Below are positions 4,132-22,594 of a stretch of 45,051 nucleotides of DNA, piece by piece. Numbering within the stretch: the first letter of the stretch is position 1; each line of letters opens with the position of its first letter. Where the stretch lies: NCBI GenBank assembly GCA_025054525.1, contig JANWZJ010000001.1, positions 1 through 45,051 on the forward strand, written 5' to 3'. The translations under genes and the position numbers were made by a program. Origin of the DNA: Bacteroidia bacterium. GTDB taxonomy: Bacteria; Bacteroidota; Bacteroidia; SpSt-205. The notes below the pieces were generated by a model. The model did not search any database. It was not told the origin of the DNA and saw nothing but the letters and a program-made list of their open reading frames with translations.

Positions 4132-4979
4132 CAACGAGCACTCGCTTCCTTCAGGGCTTGGAAGGCTTTCTTGAGGGTTTCACGGTCGGCGACCTGGGCT
4201 AAGTAGTTAAAGGAAGCGCCTTGGAGTCGTTCGGCGCCATCTATGGGGATTACGGCGCCTGTGATATACGGAGCCAAATCGGAGAGCAAGAAAGCGGCTA
4301 AGGCTCCGAGTTCTTCATAGCGCCCGTACCTGCCCATTGGCATGCGCTGCCGATAGAGCTGCTCCATTTGGGCGTCTGGCATGAGCCGAGACCAAGCACC
4401 CTCCGTCGGAAAAGAACCCGGCGCAATCGCATTCACTCGGATACCATACATAGCCCACTCATACGCTAACGACAGCGTCATCGCTTGGACGCCAGCTTTC
4501 GCCGCTGCAGAGGGCATCACAAATGCACATCCTGTATCCGTGTATGTAGTTACGATATTCAGAATGTGTCCAGGAAACTTGTTTTCAATCCAGTAAGCAC
4601 CCGCCCAACGACTCATGTGAAAACTCCCTACCAGGACAATATCCACAATCGCCCGAAATGCCCGAGGTGATAGGGTCTCCGAAGCCGCCAGAAAATTGCC
4701 CGCTGCGTTATTCACTACGGCATCCAGCTTGCCCCAGGTGCGCACTACATGCGAAAGAAACTGGGAGACACTCTCCCAGTCTCGTACATCACACACGAAG
4801 GGCAGTACCTGTGGTCCCGACACTCGGGCCGTTTCTTCTAGTACATGCTGCCGCCGACCACAAATCGCCACCTTCGCCCCACACCGAATGAATGTCTCTG
4901 TCATCGCCCTGCCCAATCCCGTCCCCCCTCCCGTTACGACGATTACCTTATCTGTCAAATCTATCTTCAGCATATTCAA
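4131..4979 (-). CDS. Short-chain dehydrogenase, 2,4-dienoyl-CoA reductase-like
   Basis: NADP(H)-dependent oxidoreductase of the classical SDR fold, 282 residues. The N-terminal Rossmann motif is TGGGTGLG (about 16-23), followed by NNAAGNF and the C-terminal IAPGSFPTEGAWSRL. The pattern resembles mitochondrial 2,4-dienoyl-CoA reductase rather than standard SDRs: the usual YxxxK is replaced by PSAAAKAGV, whose Ser and Lys are spaced as in DECR, and a Tyr is kept in TTYTDTG. The likely role is reduction of dienoyl- or enoyl-CoA intermediates from unsaturated fatty acids. Its 5' end overlaps the DUF1571 stop by 4 bases (ATGA), so it is translationally coupled. The exact substrate is not provable from sequence. 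Confidence 0.85.
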   Translation of the reverse strand: MNMLKIDLTDKVIVVTGGGTGLGRAMTETFIRCGAKVAICGRRQHVLEETARVSGPQVLPFVCDVRDWESVSQFLSHVVRTWGKLDAVVNNAAGNFLAASETLSPRAFRAIVDIVLVGSFHMSRWAGAYWIENKFPGHILNIVTTYTDTGCAFVMPSAAAKAGVQAMTLSLAYEWAMYGIRVNAIAPGSFPTEGAWSRLMPDAQMEQLYRQRMPMGRYGRYEELGALAAFLLSDLAPYITGAVIPIDGAERLQGASFNYLAQVADRETLKKAFQALKEASAR

Positions 4980-5806
4980 AAGCGGTATTCAGGATTATTG
5001 CGAGAGAAGTCCTTATCTGTGAAGGGTGGATCCACCTCCACTCCATAATACTCATACCGCTCATAAACGCCAGCTTCGTCTTCCACCTCCACTACCAGCG
5101 GAATATATCGTTCTGCATCTATGAGTAATCGTATCACCTTCCCATAATCAGAAGGTACTTTGAGTATCTGTCCAGCCTTGAGAGAGATGTTCGGAGATTT
5201 GAGTTGATTGAGTTCCATGATTTTGTACCAACCTACTTTGAGTTTTTCTCCTAATTGGAAAAGATTCTCTCCTTGCTGGGCTGTATAGGTTTCTATGCGA
5301 TAGTTGGGGGGTGAAAGTACGATTTTGTGGCATTTATGCCCGTCCCAAATGAAGGAACCATCATAGCGTACGAGCTGTGTAAGGAGAGAGCGATATTTTT
5401 CTCGGGCAGAAAGTAGCAGTGAGCGCACTAAATCAAATCCCACCGCATGAATGGTCTGATGTTGGTCTTCCAGAACCAGATCGCCATATGGGTCTAAGGT
5501 GAGCGGCAGGTAGGGGAAGGAGTTGGGCTTGACGAGCATGCGCTGACTGCCTGGCTCGGCAGGATAGAGCACTTCTACCCCCTGACGCGGGCTGAACTGA
5601 TAGCCATACACCGCGAAGGGCTGGCGACGCAGCTTGAACCGCATATGTTCGGAGAGAAGTTTGCCCTTGATGCGTTCATATTTACGCAGCTCGTAGCGAA
5701 GAGTGCGCAAAGTACCCGTGCGGTCCAACATGGTATTGAGTATTTGGAGCGCATCAGGGGACTGTGCGCACAGCAGCGAAATACCCAGAACCCACCTAAT
5801 CCCCAT
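4976..5806 (-). CDS. Exported DUF1571-type protein with an inserted LysM domain
   Basis: A 276-residue protein with a short signal peptide (MGIRWVLGISLLCAQ), so it is probably periplasmic or outer-membrane associated. Residues about 20-170 and 220-276 resemble DUF1571, a LolA/LolB-like beta fold that may hold hydrophobic ligands. Between them, at 173-218, sits a LysM-like peptidoglycan-binding module (TYTAQQGENLFQLGEKLKVG to AGQILKVP). The strands resume right after it (YGKVIRLLIDAERYIPLVVE), so the LysM looks inserted into the parent domain rather than appended. It overlaps the ABC ATPase stop by 11 bases. Function is unknown; envelope lipid or lipoprotein handling is an inference. Confidence 0.75.
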   Translation of the reverse strand: MGIRWVLGISLLCAQSPDALQILNTMLDRTGTLRTLRYELRKYERIKGKLLSEHMRFKLRRQPFAVYGYQFSPRQGVEVLYPAEPGSQRMLVKPNSFPYLPLTLDPYGDLVLEDQHQTIHAVGFDLVRSLLLSAREKYRSLLTQLVRYDGSFIWDGHKCHKIVLSPPNYRIETYTAQQGENLFQLGEKLKVGWYKIMELNQLKSPNISLKAGQILKVPSDYGKVIRLLIDAERYIPLVVEVEDEAGVYERYEYYGVEVDPPFTDKDFSRNNPEYRF

Positions 5807-10312: not shown

Positions 10313-11848
10313 TTACACCCGTATTCCCCCTACCAAAATGTCATCAACCTGTGCTAAAGAGCCTCTCCAGCTATCCAGTTCTGTAGCCAAGGCTTCTACT
10401 TGTGCCGAGGCAGAAAGAGAGGAGATTTGATGGAGAAACTGACGAACTCTCTTAGAGGTATATTTTTTACCTTTAGGTCCGCCGAACTGATCCCCAAATC
10501 CATCCGATGAGGCGTATACCCAGGCGCCTCTGGGCAGGTCAAGTTCATGTAAGCGAAAATAGTGTTCGGCAGGAGCAGAAGCCCCGCCTATCCCTTTTCT
10601 GTCTGCTTCTACTTCCTCCAGTTCAGAGCTATCAGGTCGGGCTATCCATAGTGGACGGTTGGCGCCCGCATAGAATATCTTACCCGTAGCTCGTTCATAA
10701 CATACCAGGGCTATTTCCATTCCATCTTGGGACTTAGAGCCGGGCTCGTCCTGGCGCAGAGCCCGCCGCAGTAGCTGATGAGTTTTAGCGAGCACTGCAT
10801 CAGGTAATACAGCCCCTTCGGTAAGCACAGCCTGGGTAAGTACCCCATTACAAATCATCGTCATGAGCGCTCCAGGCACACCATGCCCAGTGCAGTCCGC
10901 TACTGCCCAATATAAACGGTCTTCCGTGCTCAGAAACCAGTAGAAGTCCCCACTTACTACATCCCGTGGGCGCCAGAAAATAAAGCTATCCGGAAAATAC
11001 TGCTGAATCACCGAAGGAGAAGCCACCATACCGCGTTGTATGCGCGCCGCATACTCTAAGCTTTCGTGAATCTCATGATTAGCTCGCTCAAGCAGCTTGT
11101 AAGCCTCTTCTAACTGGCGCCGATTCTGTTCTATGAGGCTTTTTTCATACTCGGCTCGCTCCCGCTCTACGGCAAGGCGCAGGGCGGCGGCTTCTTTTTC
11201 TCGGCGCTGTTCCTCCTCTCGCTTGCGGTCCGTTACATCCCGCAAACTCAATAAGTATCCCTGAATAATAGGGTCCGCATAGAGCGGCTGTCCCGTCCCC
11301 TCAAAATAACGCCAGTAGCCCTCCCTATGCTGTAAGCGCACGGTAAAAAAGGCAGAACTTGCCCGCGCAAATGCTGTCTCTAAAAGAGGACGATCCTCCG
11401 GTGAAGTAATCTCACGAAGGGTCTCTCCTCGGATTTGTTCGGGATTATAGCCTAAGGTTCTCTGCAAAGAAGGGCTGGCGTATTGAATCGCTCCCTGCTT
11501 ATTGAGGATGAGAAAGATGTCCGAAGTGTACTGAACTAAAGCTTTATATCGCCCTTCTACCCTTAGAACTTCGTTTCGGGCTTGAAGCTCCACCACTTGG
11601 CGGTATCGGCGCGTTTCTTGCCAGTAGCGCCACCCTATGAAGCTCCCTCCTACCGTCAAAAGCAGCCATAATAGACTCACTAAAATTCCCCCCCAAGTAG
11701 GAAGACTCAGATAAATCCCCGTGGCTCCCATTATTCCCACTGCTATTCCCCCCCCTACAATAATCCACATAAGCTGCGAGGCGGCGTCAGCAGGGGACTT
11801 TTGCTGGGTGCGCATCGCCTCCAAGACTACTGCCATTCCCCGCGCCAT
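10313..11848 (-). CDS. Membrane PAS-domain SpoIIE/PP2C-type protein phosphatase
   Basis: Putative serine/threonine phosphatase acting on a signalling partner. The 511-residue chain has two membrane helices at about 24-72, a PAS domain at about 100-215 (YTSDIFLILNKQGAIQYASP to LLSLRDVTDRKRE), a coiled-coil stretch to about 270, and a SpoIIE/PP2C domain to the end. The metal-binding Asp signatures are present: RDVVSGDFYWF, AVADCTGHGVPGALM and YASSDGFGDQFGG, plus a final DDILVGGIRV. The layout resembles RsbU/SpoIIE regulators that control anti-sigma factor antagonists, but no such antagonist is in the window. It follows the porP/sprF gene by one base, so it is probably part of the surface/secretion operon. 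Confidence 0.9.
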   Translation of the reverse strand: MARGMAVVLEAMRTQQKSPADAASQLMWIIVGGGIAVGIMGATGIYLSLPTWGGILVSLLWLLLTVGGSFIGWRYWQETRRYRQVVELQARNEVLRVEGRYKALVQYTSDIFLILNKQGAIQYASPSLQRTLGYNPEQIRGETLREITSPEDRPLLETAFARASSAFFTVRLQHREGYWRYFEGTGQPLYADPIIQGYLLSLRDVTDRKREEEQRREKEAAALRLAVERERAEYEKSLIEQNRRQLEEAYKLLERANHEIHESLEYAARIQRGMVASPSVIQQYFPDSFIFWRPRDVVSGDFYWFLSTEDRLYWAVADCTGHGVPGALMTMICNGVLTQAVLTEGAVLPDAVLAKTHQLLRRALRQDEPGSKSQDGMEIALVCYERATGKIFYAGANRPLWIARPDSSELEEVEADRKGIGGASAPAEHYFRLHELDLPRGAWVYASSDGFGDQFGGPKGKKYTSKRVRQFLHQISSLSASAQVEALATELDSWRGSLAQVDDILVGGIRV

Positions 11849-18076: not shown

Positions 18077-21000
18077 CTACTCCTCGTAATAAGTAATGAT
18101 GATGCTATCGCCTGCTCGGATGTTATCGTTTTCTAAGCGATTGAGCTGACGCAGTTGGTCTGTTGAAACTTTATACTGAGCGGCAATATCCGATAGGGTT
18201 TCGCCAGGACGCACAATATGAAGGCGCGCACGAGGAACTTTCCGCTTGGCGATAACTTCCTCACTGATACGAGGATCCTCTAAGAAGAACTTTCTGCGTT
18301 GGGCGGAGTTTAGGTCAGGAATGTTCTTCTCTTGAGCCAAGTTGATGAGTTGTTGCGCTTTAGGCAGAAGGGGATACAAAAGTACAGTGCCTTTTTCCCC
18401 AGGAACTGCTAAATAAGTACCCTCTGGATGAAAAGCAGGACGAAACTGAATATGCAAGGGGAAAGAGTATTCCGTGAGACGAAGGAAGGAGCTACCACTC
18501 CAGAGTATGGCTTTTTGATCCGTAGCGATGGAAAGGATGTGTTCGCCGGTGGGGCTCCACTGAATTGCATAAGGGATGCCTTTATGTCCTGGAAGTGTAT
18601 GAGTGCGAATACCTTCGGGCAGCTTCCACAGGTAGAGCATGGAATCAGCGCCTGCTGTGATGAGCCGATTGCCCGACGGATGAAAGGCAGCAGCTTTGAC
18701 AGGGGCATTATGCCCTTTGAGACGAGTAATGAGCTTGCCCTCCCAGTTCCATAAGGAGGAGGTGCCATCTTCACTGAGAGCCAAGATGTACCGCTCATCT
18801 GGGGAGAGTAAGAGCTGCGTAATGGCACCCACATGGGCAGAAAGCCGCTTCGGAGAAGCCCCCTCTTTCCATGACCACAGATACAAAAGACCACCGCGAG
18901 TGGCTACCGCAGCTTTTCTTCCATCCTGAGTAAGGACACCCCATAATACCTCTTCATCTAAGCTTAGTGAGTGGATGAGTTCGCCAGCGAGACCATTCCA
19001 GAGCTTGCAGGTACGATCCAGAGAAGTAGTCAAGATGATACTCCCATCCGCAGAAAGGGCTATGTGCGTAAGGTTATCTTGGTGTCCGACGAGTTGAGCC
19101 ACACTGACACCGCTCCGCAAGTCCCATAGGCGTACCGAGAAATCCTCTGAGAGCGAGGCTAAATACTTGAGGTCCTGCGTGAAATAAACTTTCTCCACGA
19201 TATGCGTATGACCCCGAAGCACTTCTTGCGAAGCACCCGTAGTGGGATTCCAGATGCGAATCGTTTTGTCCCAGCTTGCGGTAGCGAGCTTAGAGCCATC
19301 GGGACTGAATACTGCGTAGATGACCCGATTCTTGTGTCCTATGAGTTTTCGGGGGGGTTTGGGATAGAGATGAGCGTGTAGCGCGAAGTAGAGCGCTGCT
19401 TCGGCTTCGGGCACGTAAGGGCGCTCACCAGGGGCTCCAATCTGCCGAGGAAGCGCTTCCAACGCTAAGCGAACCCCTATCTCGGGATGTCCTTTGCGAG
19501 TTTGGTCTTCTGAGAGAGAAGCTAAGAAAAGCGATTGCAGCACTAAAGCCTTATTGCGCTGCTGAAGCGCAAGGGCTGTCTGATATTCGGCTTGATTGCG
19601 CTCATACTCTGCATTTATGCGAGCCGATTCGGCTACCCGAGTCTGATTTTCAGCGATGCGCTGCTGCTGCAGAGCACGCTCTCTTTCCCGCTCAGCAATC
19701 TGACGCTGATCCTCAGCGATACGACGCTGTCTCTCGGCATTATTGCGCTCCGCTTCGGCGATACGCAAGGCATTTTCCGCTAACATCTTTTGATGCAGGG
19801 CTAAGAGTCGCTCCTTTTCTGCAATCATCCGCTGGCGAAGGGCTTCCTGCGCATTTGCTTCGGCTTTCATGCGCTGCTCTTGGGCGATTCGGGCTTGCAG
19901 GCGCGCTTCTTCGGCATTCTTCTCAGCTAATGCCCGCTGTATTTGCGCATAATACAAGGCTACCAAACTCAGCAGAAAGAGCAGCGTAATCACAAAAAGT
20001 GCCAACAACAGAAGCCGTCGGTTGCGCTCTATGCGAGCTTTGCTTCGGGCCAAATAAAGCTCTATCGCATCCCGCAGCGCTATGGCTTGGGTGATAGGTT
20101 CTACATTAGGCACAAGCTCATCGGGGGGAAGATTTCGCCGTATCCAGGCAGGATTGGGACGCGTGGGATAATACCACTCAGAAAAGTACTGATAGGAGCC
20201 CCCCGAGAGTAAGAGCCGAGGTGAGCGATCCTGTTCCAACCAGCGCTGCACCTGGAACTTAAGCTCGCGGAAGATACGCACGCTTTGGGCTTCTTGTTCA
20301 GCCCAGCGAATGAGCCGTTCCCAGTTCCGAATCAGAGCTTCATGGGAGACGGTGAGGGTATCATTAGGACTGAGCGTGTGGTCTTGACCTTCAGCCAGAG
20401 CGGGCTGGAGAAAGCTCACTTGGGTATCTCGGAAGAGAGCCGCTACCTTAGCTACGAAATCAGTGGATACCCCTGGCAGCCCCAAAATATCGGTGAGTTG
20501 CTGCAGAGTCAGCCGAGCACGCACAGCGCGCCCCTCATCTATTCGGGTAAGAGGTACGAAAATACCCCGTGCTATTTGCTGTAGTTGCTCCAGAGGAACC
20601 CGCTCCCCATATCGCTTTTCATAATACTCATCTAAATGCTCATATAAAGTCTCTGCATGAAAGTTGAGAACATTTCGCAGGTGAGCATGTTGATAGAGTT
20701 CTTGTTCAGTGGGAGACCTTTTCTGAAGATACTGCTCAAATAAGGTTCTTTCTTTTTCGGGCAGGCGACTCACATGAAGTCCCCCCACCATCGCATAATG
20801 GACTAAATCCATCGGCTCCTGCTGTGCGCTGGCTACATGCCAAATGCGATGCAGGGCATGCTGCAGCACAGGAAGCTGGTCTATTCCATCGCCTATGTCG
20901 TTGAGCAAGCGCTGAGTAAGCCTCGGGGTGATTCGGTCTCCATTTAGTTCAGCGGGTTTCTCAATCACGGCTTGGAACTCTTCCCGAGTGAGCCGCGGTA

Positions 21001-22594
21001 CGAAATACGTACTCTCTCCTATCAGCTCGGCAAACCCATGGAAAGCCACACACTGCCCGATAAAGTCAGAGCGCATCGTAAAGATGACCCATATAGGCAG
21101 ATTTTCTCTTCGGGCGATGCGTATGGTCTCGGAAAGAACATTCACGGTTATCTGAGCCAAAGGAGAGGCGATACCCCCTGAGTAGTTCTCTTCATTCGTG
21201 AAAAATTCCTCAAACTGGTCTACCAGGATGAGGAGGTTCTGTCCTTCTCGGAGGCGGGCGATTTTGTCAGCTTCGGATAGAATCTCAAAGGCAGGAGAAG
21301 TAGGGTCTATATAGATGTGGGACTGTTTGTACAAATCTACCAGCGCCGAGAAACCATAGGACAGTTTCGTTTCTACATCGGGGATATTGCTGTGGCCAAT
21401 AGCGGAAGCAAGGGCAGTAGCGAGGTTAGTGAGGGGCTGTTTTTCAGGACGGAAAGCGGCGATAGCCCAAGAGGGATACGCAGCTGGCATGAGATTAGCC
21501 CGCAGCGCTGGCAAAACCCCCGCAAAGACTAAAGAAGATTTCCCATCTCCCGATGCCCCGCTGACCATAACGAACTTCCGCTCCTCCAGTAGTTCTAAGA
21601 TTTTGCGGATATGCTTCTCCCTGCCGTGAAAGAAGATAGCTTCCCCCTCCTCAAATGGACGCAGCCCGATATAAGGGCAACTTCGTTTCGTTTCGCTCCA
21701 TATCGCTGAGCGCCGCGCCTCCGCTAAGCTCTTCTCTATGCAGGCTTGGAGGGCAGGCGGCTCTACCAGCTCCAAACGTACATTCGGCACCTGCAAGGAC
21801 AAATACCGATTACGCAGGGGATCAGGAAAGCCTACTAAATAGATAGGCGTGGCTTGCGAGAGTCCCCCAGCCGCTTTCCAAAGCTGCTGAGTAAGCGCTA
21901 ATGCCCAATCCCCCGCATAATGAAAAAATACTACCAAAAGCTGACTCTGCTGATAGAGGCGAAGGGACTCGGCTACATCTTCATCCGCCTTTTCAGGGCG
22001 GAATGCTAAACTTTGGAGCTTATACTTCTTAGAGAGGTTTTCAATCACTGAGAAGCAGCTCTCTGAGTCGCGCACGTTGTGGATAAAGGCGATGTCATAC
22101 TGCTTGATGATTTGGCGGGCTTCTACAGCCCCAGCTAAGAAGGATTTGACTTCGCCTATCATGAGGGGCATAGCGGGGGTGCGCGTGAGCATGACTCGCT
22201 CGGTAAGCGTATTCTCTACGAAGGTGAGCAGCTCTCGTGCTTCTAACTCATAGACGACGCTCTCATCGCGAGGCGCCCAAACAATCAAGCGGAAAGACGG
22301 GGAGACTTGCTGAAGCAGGATTTCATACTGCCTCTGTAGCAGTAAAGAACCATCAGGTAGCACAGGTCCTTTATCCACGCCTAAAATAAGAAAAGCAGCA
22401 TCGTGCTTCTTGCCTATTTCAGCGAGTGCATTCAGTTCTACCTGCTCTGGAACTTCTACGGAATACCCTGCATTTTTGAGCATAATGCCCAAAACTTCTC
22501 GGTGGATGCGGTCACCCTCGGCAACCACACCCACCCAGATGGAAAAGGGACGAATAGATTCGGCAACCGATATGGTGGTAGCAGGAGCCTCCAT
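18077..22594 (-). CDS. Trans-envelope STAND NTPase: TIR-like pair, nSTAND1, membrane helix, coiled coil, WD40, LysM
   Basis: A 1505-residue signalling protein. Two Rossmann/TIR-like domains (about 18-155 and 166-290) resemble the N-terminal modules often found before nSTAND1. The nSTAND1 NTPase follows from 306 (CPYIGLRPFEEGEAIFFHGRE), with Walker A GASGDGKSS (346-354) and Walker B LLILVDQFEEFF (454-465). One membrane helix at 861-882 is preceded by a strongly basic stretch (ARSKARIERNRR), which predicts N-in/C-out. Then comes a Glu/Arg/Gln/Ala coiled coil (883-1015), seven clear WD40 repeats plus a degenerate eighth (1082-1408) and a C-terminal LysM (1457-1501). By that topology the NTPase is cytoplasmic while the coiled coil, WD40 and LysM are periplasmic, with LysM on peptidoglycan. 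STAND proteins act as ligand-triggered oligomeric switches; ligand and output here are unknown. The start is backed by a -7 element 7 bases upstream. Confidence 0.9.
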   Translation of the reverse strand: MEAPATTISVAESIRPFSIWVGVVAEGDRIHREVLGIMLKNAGYSVEVPEQVELNALAEIGKKHDAAFLILGVDKGPVLPDGSLLLQRQYEILLQQVSPSFRLIVWAPRDESVVYELEARELLTFVENTLTERVMLTRTPAMPLMIGEVKSFLAGAVEARQIIKQYDIAFIHNVRDSESCFSVIENLSKKYKLQSLAFRPEKADEDVAESLRLYQQSQLLVVFFHYAGDWALALTQQLWKAAGGLSQATPIYLVGFPDPLRNRYLSLQVPNVRLELVEPPALQACIEKSLAEARRSAIWSETKRSCPYIGLRPFEEGEAIFFHGREKHIRKILELLEERKFVMVSGASGDGKSSLVFAGVLPALRANLMPAAYPSWAIAAFRPEKQPLTNLATALASAIGHSNIPDVETKLSYGFSALVDLYKQSHIYIDPTSPAFEILSEADKIARLREGQNLLILVDQFEEFFTNEENYSGGIASPLAQITVNVLSETIRIARRENLPIWVIFTMRSDFIGQCVAFHGFAELIGESTYFVPRLTREEFQAVIEKPAELNGDRITPRLTQRLLNDIGDGIDQLPVLQHALHRIWHVASAQQEPMDLVHYAMVGGLHVSRLPEKERTLFEQYLQKRSPTEQELYQHAHLRNVLNFHAETLYEHLDEYYEKRYGERVPLEQLQQIARGIFVPLTRIDEGRAVRARLTLQQLTDILGLPGVSTDFVAKVAALFRDTQVSFLQPALAEGQDHTLSPNDTLTVSHEALIRNWERLIRWAEQEAQSVRIFRELKFQVQRWLEQDRSPRLLLSGGSYQYFSEWYYPTRPNPAWIRRNLPPDELVPNVEPITQAIALRDAIELYLARSKARIERNRRLLLLALFVITLLFLLSLVALYYAQIQRALAEKNAEEARLQARIAQEQRMKAEANAQEALRQRMIAEKERLLALHQKMLAENALRIAEAERNNAERQRRIAEDQRQIAERERERALQQQRIAENQTRVAESARINAEYERNQAEYQTALALQQRNKALVLQSLFLASLSEDQTRKGHPEIGVRLALEALPRQIGAPGERPYVPEAEAALYFALHAHLYPKPPRKLIGHKNRVIYAVFSPDGSKLATASWDKTIRIWNPTTGASQEVLRGHTHIVEKVYFTQDLKYLASLSEDFSVRLWDLRSGVSVAQLVGHQDNLTHIALSADGSIILTTSLDRTCKLWNGLAGELIHSLSLDEEVLWGVLTQDGRKAAVATRGGLLYLWSWKEGASPKRLSAHVGAITQLLLSPDERYILALSEDGTSSLWNWEGKLITRLKGHNAPVKAAAFHPSGNRLITAGADSMLYLWKLPEGIRTHTLPGHKGIPYAIQWSPTGEHILSIATDQKAILWSGSSFLRLTEYSFPLHIQFRPAFHPEGTYLAVPGEKGTVLLYPLLPKAQQLINLAQEKNIPDLNSAQRRKFFLEDPRISEEVIAKRKVPRARLHIVRPGETLSDIAAQYKVSTDQLRQLNRLENDNIRAGDSIIITYYEE

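Follow-up and report, generated by a model that had tools for sequence, protein, structure and literature searches.

A predicted membrane-spanning STAND NTPase with a WD40 propeller and a terminal LysM domain, conserved in an order of Bacteroidia: a putative wall-tethered receptor for envelope state

INTRODUCTION

PASTA-containing Ser/Thr kinases, such as PrkC and PknB, carry a wall-binding part outside the cell and an NTP-using signalling module inside it, joined by one transmembrane helix. Ser/Thr kinases with a transmembrane helix and a C-terminal WD40 domain, the latter predicted to be periplasmic, have been described in Planctomycetota (PMC11032199). In the type IX secretion system of Bacteroidota, PorE combines a periplasmic WD40 domain with a peptidoglycan-binding OmpA domain (PMC7192894). 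The STAND proteins of conflict systems follow an Apaf-1-like plan, with an effector or adaptor followed by the STAND module and a sensor made of WD40 repeats (PMC8195603, PMC7159879), and STAND switches have been studied mainly as cytoplasmic immune sensors.

Here we analyzed a gene encoding a STAND NTPase that appears to bring these elements together, located in a 45,051-nucleotide stretch of DNA (the window) within contig 28 of a 1.8-Mb draft genome. The closest named relatives are metagenome-assembled genomes labelled Bacteroidia bacterium (SKYB, SKW and KatS3mg series), which we take to be hot-spring material. The combination of nSTAND1, transmembrane helix and WD40 is already known, and the initial annotation had called a LysM domain on such a plan unusual; in agreement with this, literature searches for STAND together with LysM returned no paper describing the architecture, although this is a weak absence as they covered open-access text only. 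The form studied here, ending in LysM, having the N-terminal pair fused and being core to an order, is thus not found in the literature searched.

RESULTS

Gene and domain plan

The gene occupies positions 18077..22594 of the minus strand, with an ATG start at 22594 and a stop codon at 18077-18079, and encodes 1505 amino acids as judged from the open reading frame, its translation and Pfam. From the N- to the C-terminus, the protein comprises a Rossmann/TIR-like pair, an nSTAND1 NTPase, a transmembrane helix, a coiled coil, a WD40 propeller and a LysM domain. The NTPase (residues 307-792, 20219..21676, minus strand) matched Pfam PF20703 over its length with an E value of 1.4e-72 and has both Walker motifs intact, as expected for a member of the nSTAND1 family. 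Walker A (GASGDGKSS, residues 346-354, 21533..21559, minus strand) and Walker B (LLILVDQFEEFF, residues 454-465, 21200..21235, minus strand) lie exactly where the initial annotation had placed them; among 11 homologs, the former is mostly invariant and the core of the latter invariant. Ligand-driven, ATP-dependent oligomerisation of this module would be in line with its family membership.

The nSTAND1, WD40 and LysM matches each exceeded their Pfam cut-offs, and an AlphaFold2 model built from 15 homologs (mean pLDDT 85) displayed a single long helix that is briefly interrupted, a 31-strand propeller and a beta-alpha-alpha-beta LysM fold. Together with hydropathy, these analyses confirmed the plan first read from the sequence, having nSTAND1, a single transmembrane helix, the coil, WD40 repeats and LysM at the positions originally given. 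A chimera or assembly artefact could be ruled out, with the identical plan being found in each ortholog having an intact end.

The N-terminal pair

Alignment, AlphaFold2 and Foldseek delineated an N-terminal pair of alpha/beta domains at residues 15-300 (21695..22552, minus strand), modelled as two domains within the first 300 residues at a pLDDT of 87. Foldseek searches with the whole pair gave mostly meaningless whole-chain matches (rmsd >10), and only single-domain matches were therefore used. The best of these in the PDB was the plant TIR domain 4c6t (probability 1.00, TMt 0.59), with response-regulator (receiver) and flavodoxin folds ranking just below. Pfam gave no match for the pair in the query protein at E<0.1, and one homolog weakly matched DUF4062 (6.5e-5) and TIR_2 (0.0015). 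In an alignment of 23 homologs, W230, K240 and G243-G244 were kept, and the catalytic glutamate of TIR domains was conserved neither after the invariant W230 nor within the first domain's QY helix. No canonical TIR_2 domain was found anywhere in the genome itself. From these models the pair is best called TIR-like, consisting of two Rossmann-like domains, although it could be another Rossmannoid fold, and the alignment suggests that it is probably non-catalytic. Among the elements originally proposed, the TIR-like pair is the least secure.

Membrane helix, coiled coil and topology

By hydropathy and conservation, a transmembrane helix was located at residues 861-882 (19949..20014, minus strand), directly preceded by the basic stretch IERNRR. 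Its segment 861-879 is an uncharged run of 19 residues with a mean Kyte-Doolittle hydropathy of 3.08, a level of 3.0 being reached by 1/1000 shuffles of the protein, and the 15-residue flanks contain six Lys/Arg before it and two after. A membrane helix was found at the same place in 111/113 distinct homologs. Lys/Arg counts in the 15 residues flanking it averaged 4.9 towards the NTPase and 2.9 beyond the helix, the NTPase side being higher in 89 of these 111, equal in 10 and lower in 12. In nearly all homologs, the helix lies about 555-565 residues past the CPYxGLR motif. The single transmembrane segment and positive-inside bias of a bitopic receptor are thus seen here by hydropathy and charge only, the Cys counts before and after the helix being too low to weigh for topology.

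Following the helix is a coiled coil of 138 residues (883-1020; 19535..19948, minus strand), recognized by heptad count, length comparison and the AlphaFold2 helix. Twenty alanines of its 138 residues fall in a single heptad register, and it would span about 20 nm if fully helical and straight. The only length difference seen, with 145 residues in L027/L127, amounts to one whole heptad, as expected for a load-bearing coil.

Seven proteins of the genome contain LysM, with nine matches between them. Of the six other than the STAND protein, five start with a signal-peptide-like stretch, as judged by eye, and the sixth has the order PP2C-TM-LysM-LysM, so that wherever it can be judged LysM is extracytoplasmic in this organism. 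With the conserved transmembrane helix, the basic NTPase side and these signs of export, the LysM domain and the propeller are most likely periplasmic. The topology initially proposed, with the NTPase inside and the propeller and LysM outside, is thereby supported by inference, as is the idea of a wall-tethered sensor that was built upon it.

Some further LysM proteins may be mentioned. At locus L138 (contig C33 of the same genome, approximately 12.9-14.2 kb), a protein having a PP2C domain, a transmembrane helix at 267-285 and two C-terminal LysM domains adjoins a Ser/Thr kinase with its own transmembrane helix, resembling PASTA-type wall signalling with LysM in the place of PASTA; across the genus, frames of comparable length that carry two LysM domains side by side recur. 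The window itself also encodes, at 4976-5806, a protein with DUF1571 and LysM and a signal-peptide-like start.

WD40 propeller and LysM domain

The WD40 propeller covers residues 1079-1410 (18365..19360, minus strand) according to Pfam, AlphaFold2 and Foldseek. Six WD40 stretches were matched by Pfam and the 31 modelled strands close a propeller, as tandem repeats of this kind should. In Foldseek the domain best fitted eight-bladed structures (TMt 0.89 to Tako8), and the model thus suggests that the propeller probably has eight blades. It is followed by a tail, identified by alignment, that links it to LysM (residues 1411-1456; 18227..18364, minus strand) and that spans 46 to 90 residues among LysM-bearing homologs.

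The LysM domain itself (residues 1457-1501; 18092..18226, minus strand) was recognized by Pfam, a genome scan, phmmer and the AlphaFold2 fold. Pfam matched residues 1459-1501 with an E value of 2.9e-13 and 50.0 bits, against a curated cut-off of 20.9, and phmmer found homology to solved structures, including those of LytE and of a cell-wall-binding endopeptidase. A chance match was ruled out by the Pfam score, the phmmer hits to solved LysM domains and the beta-alpha-alpha-beta fold, and recurrence of the domain in 14/16 C-termini of the fused family likewise shows that it is more than chance. The profile searches have accordingly identified a genuine LysM at the C-terminus, as had been claimed. 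From its sequence the domain would be expected to bind peptidoglycan, with a single LysM often being a weak binder.

Distribution and single origin of the fused form

The gene was found in 11/11 genomes of the genus and in 13/13 genomes of the order, at one locus in each, with one incomplete genome of the order having it in two pieces at contig ends. Pfam identified LysM in the STAND frame of 10/11 genus genomes; in the remaining one, a contig end truncates the frame. Within the class, 44/395 genomes gave a match at E<1e-60, and full fused length outside the order was seen in only six of these 395 genomes. Four of the six proteins end in LysM (L127, L126/L029, L128 and L129) and span three other families, while the fused proteins L030 and L031 are without LysM, which shows that this domain is not indispensable to the scheme. 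The L027/L127, L029/L126, L128 and L129 proteins have kept LysM at approximately 40% identity and with differing linker lengths. No further full fusion was found at E<1e-200 in a phylum sample of 396 genomes. The plan, whose wider occurrence the initial annotation had left to a search across genomes, hence recurs throughout the order and in four genomes beyond it.

In a tree of the nSTAND1 domain, from which L031 was left out, all fused proteins formed one clade (support 100/99) that excluded the split ones; the history of LysM on this tree needs two changes, such as one gain and one loss. These comparisons of sequences indicate that the fusion arose once and that two lineages lack LysM. L027 is a contig filed under Ignavibacterium, yet its gene closely matches that of the Bacteroidia genome G240 (L127) both in plan and in placement in the tree, and the record may be misbinned or mislabelled.

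Split relatives and neighbouring genes

In other Bacteroidota, the TIR-like pair is encoded as a separate gene directly before an nSTAND1-TM gene, and some of these pair genes also bear a true TIR_2 or guanylate cyclase domain. Within the subgroup of split relatives having WD40 (L130, L133, L135, L057, L062 and L079), the downstream gene products resemble outer-membrane proteins, two of them having SPOR, and the loci also encode Kelch/PKD or lipoprotein-like proteins and, in most cases, a SpoIIE phosphatase. These neighbours tie the module to the envelope. The peptidoglycan-binding domain is LysM, on the STAND protein itself, in one branch, and SPOR, on a neighbouring protein, at two loci of another. 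Judged by gene content, the module of which the fused protein is part recurs alongside envelope genes and signalling enzymes.

Other arrangements were also seen. Five loci (L034, L035, L050, L054 and L092) have a three-gene operon in which TIR_2 or guanylate cyclase fused to the TIR-like pair comes first and two proteins of the nSTAND1-TM type come next; for the earlier of these two, tested in L050, Pfam gave no domain on the far side. At L075 (633-13540), GldK/L/M/N-like genes, recognized by eye, lie immediately before a gene for the TIR-like pair, after which an nSTAND1-TM protein and a SpoIIE phosphatase are encoded, a possible link of the split module to gliding or type IX secretion.

Within the order, no conserved operon partner was seen and the neighbouring genes are not conserved, so that no partner is indicated. 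The genome itself gave 19 SpoIIE-type phosphatase matches, one of them inside the window (10313-11848, minus strand); any of these could act downstream, with nothing linking them to the STAND protein.

DISCUSSION

The best reading of these results is that the gene encodes a core envelope-surveillance protein of its order and not a mobile defence gene. In functional terms, we consider it reasonably probable that the protein is a housekeeping STAND receptor, tethered to peptidoglycan, that senses the state of the envelope, crossing the inner membrane once and signalling via its TIR-like pair. The domains, their order and conservation, the single origin of the fusion and the one copy per genome were established by computation; beyond this domain anatomy, we infer the topology, wall binding, oligomerisation and signal. 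The nSTAND1 ATPase and the TIR-like pair would then reside in the cytoplasm, with the approximately 20-nm Ala-heptad coil carrying the propeller into the periplasm, between membrane and wall, and LysM fixing it to the peptidoglycan. Wall changes, or binding of a ligand by the propeller, would shift the way in which the coils cluster or their register, freeing the STAND module from its ADP-locked form so that it binds ATP and oligomerises; the TIR-like pairs would thereby be gathered into a platform on which an effector could act.

A more specific version, unlikely though worth stating, is a molecular ruler in which the coil, having a fixed length and being held by LysM, gauges the distance or tension between membrane and wall, with the STAND switch reporting to the cytoplasm; if true, an immune-type oligomerising NTPase would serve as a constitutive housekeeping sensor of envelope integrity. 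That the protein should be wholly cytoplasmic, with the hydrophobic segment buried or peripheral and LysM binding a ligand inside the cell, for example a recycled muropeptide, is very improbable: STAND proteins with WD40 frequently reside in the cytoplasm, where some LysM-bearing proteins are active as well, but the uncharged and strongly hydrophobic segment is kept as a membrane helix in nearly all homologs and the other LysM proteins of the genome all look exported or membrane-spanning. The conserved length of the coil, with its heptad-wise indel, would also suit a structural tether or scaffold. In that case the coil, propeller and LysM would fasten the inner membrane to the peptidoglycan, or would set an envelope machine in place, and the role of the ATPase would lie in assembly instead of signalling; PorE offers a precedent of WD40 and peptidoglycan binding used as a secretion anchor (PMC7192894). 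However, the nSTAND1 motifs, Walker A and Walker B among them, hardly vary, and a cyclase or phosphatase is encoded in related operons, which favours signalling and makes such a tether improbable.

A receptor for anti-phage or other defence, in which the propeller and LysM would sense attack on the wall from the periplasm and abortive death would be set off by the STAND/TIR-like part, draws on the frequency of TIR-bearing STAND NTPases in conflict systems (PMC8195603, PMC7159879), on the true TIR_2 or nucleotide cyclase domains carried by relatives of the N-terminal gene, and on distant nSTAND1 homologs located on plasmids and in three phage records, showing that the wider family has mobile members. 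We nonetheless find this of low probability. With PADLOC and the 13 genomes of the order, neither a match to a known model, a patchy distribution nor a defence neighbourhood was found, the PADLOC matches of the gene being driven solely by WD40 and coil. In addition, the catalytic glutamate is not conserved in the pair and the genome lacks canonical TIR_2, and the sensor is not hypervariable: within the genus, identity was 70% for WD40, 71% for LysM, 68% for the N-terminal pair and 82% for nSTAND1, and sensor parts about as conserved as the N-terminal pair do not look like those of an immune sensor that diversifies fast. A defence-island gene was likewise not supported, and neither was phage attack, initially suggested as a natural trigger, the gene being core and single-copy, its neighbourhoods varied and the tested neighbours without a PADLOC match.

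Should the reading as an envelope receptor be true, STAND machinery would also serve envelope housekeeping and take signals through a membrane, and the family described here, being defined and vertically kept, could be used for asking how a transmembrane coil gates a STAND module.

Among the known systems close to it are the nSTAND1-TM-WD40 proteins of Bacteroidota (PF20703 with PF00400), with which the protein shares the NTPase followed by a membrane helix at a set distance and, as in the L130-type relatives, WD40 on the far side. The split relatives have the pair in a separate gene with no LysM seen, whereas here the pair is fused and LysM terminal. The PASTA kinases have a similar working plan, with domains that differ on both sides of the membrane and are not homologous. 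With the Planctomycetota kinases the protein shares a cytoplasmic enzyme, a single transmembrane helix and a predicted periplasmic WD40 domain, whereas these have a kinase in place of the STAND switch, and LysM is not among the features noted for them (PMC11032199). PorE shares the periplasmic WD40 propeller and C-terminal peptidoglycan binder but is an outer-membrane lipoprotein having an OmpA-type binder, without NTPase or inner-membrane helix (PMC7192894). The STAND conflict systems, finally, have the same domain order and are described mainly as accessory (PMC8195603, PMC7159879), whereas the protein studied here is predicted to span the membrane and is core to its order.
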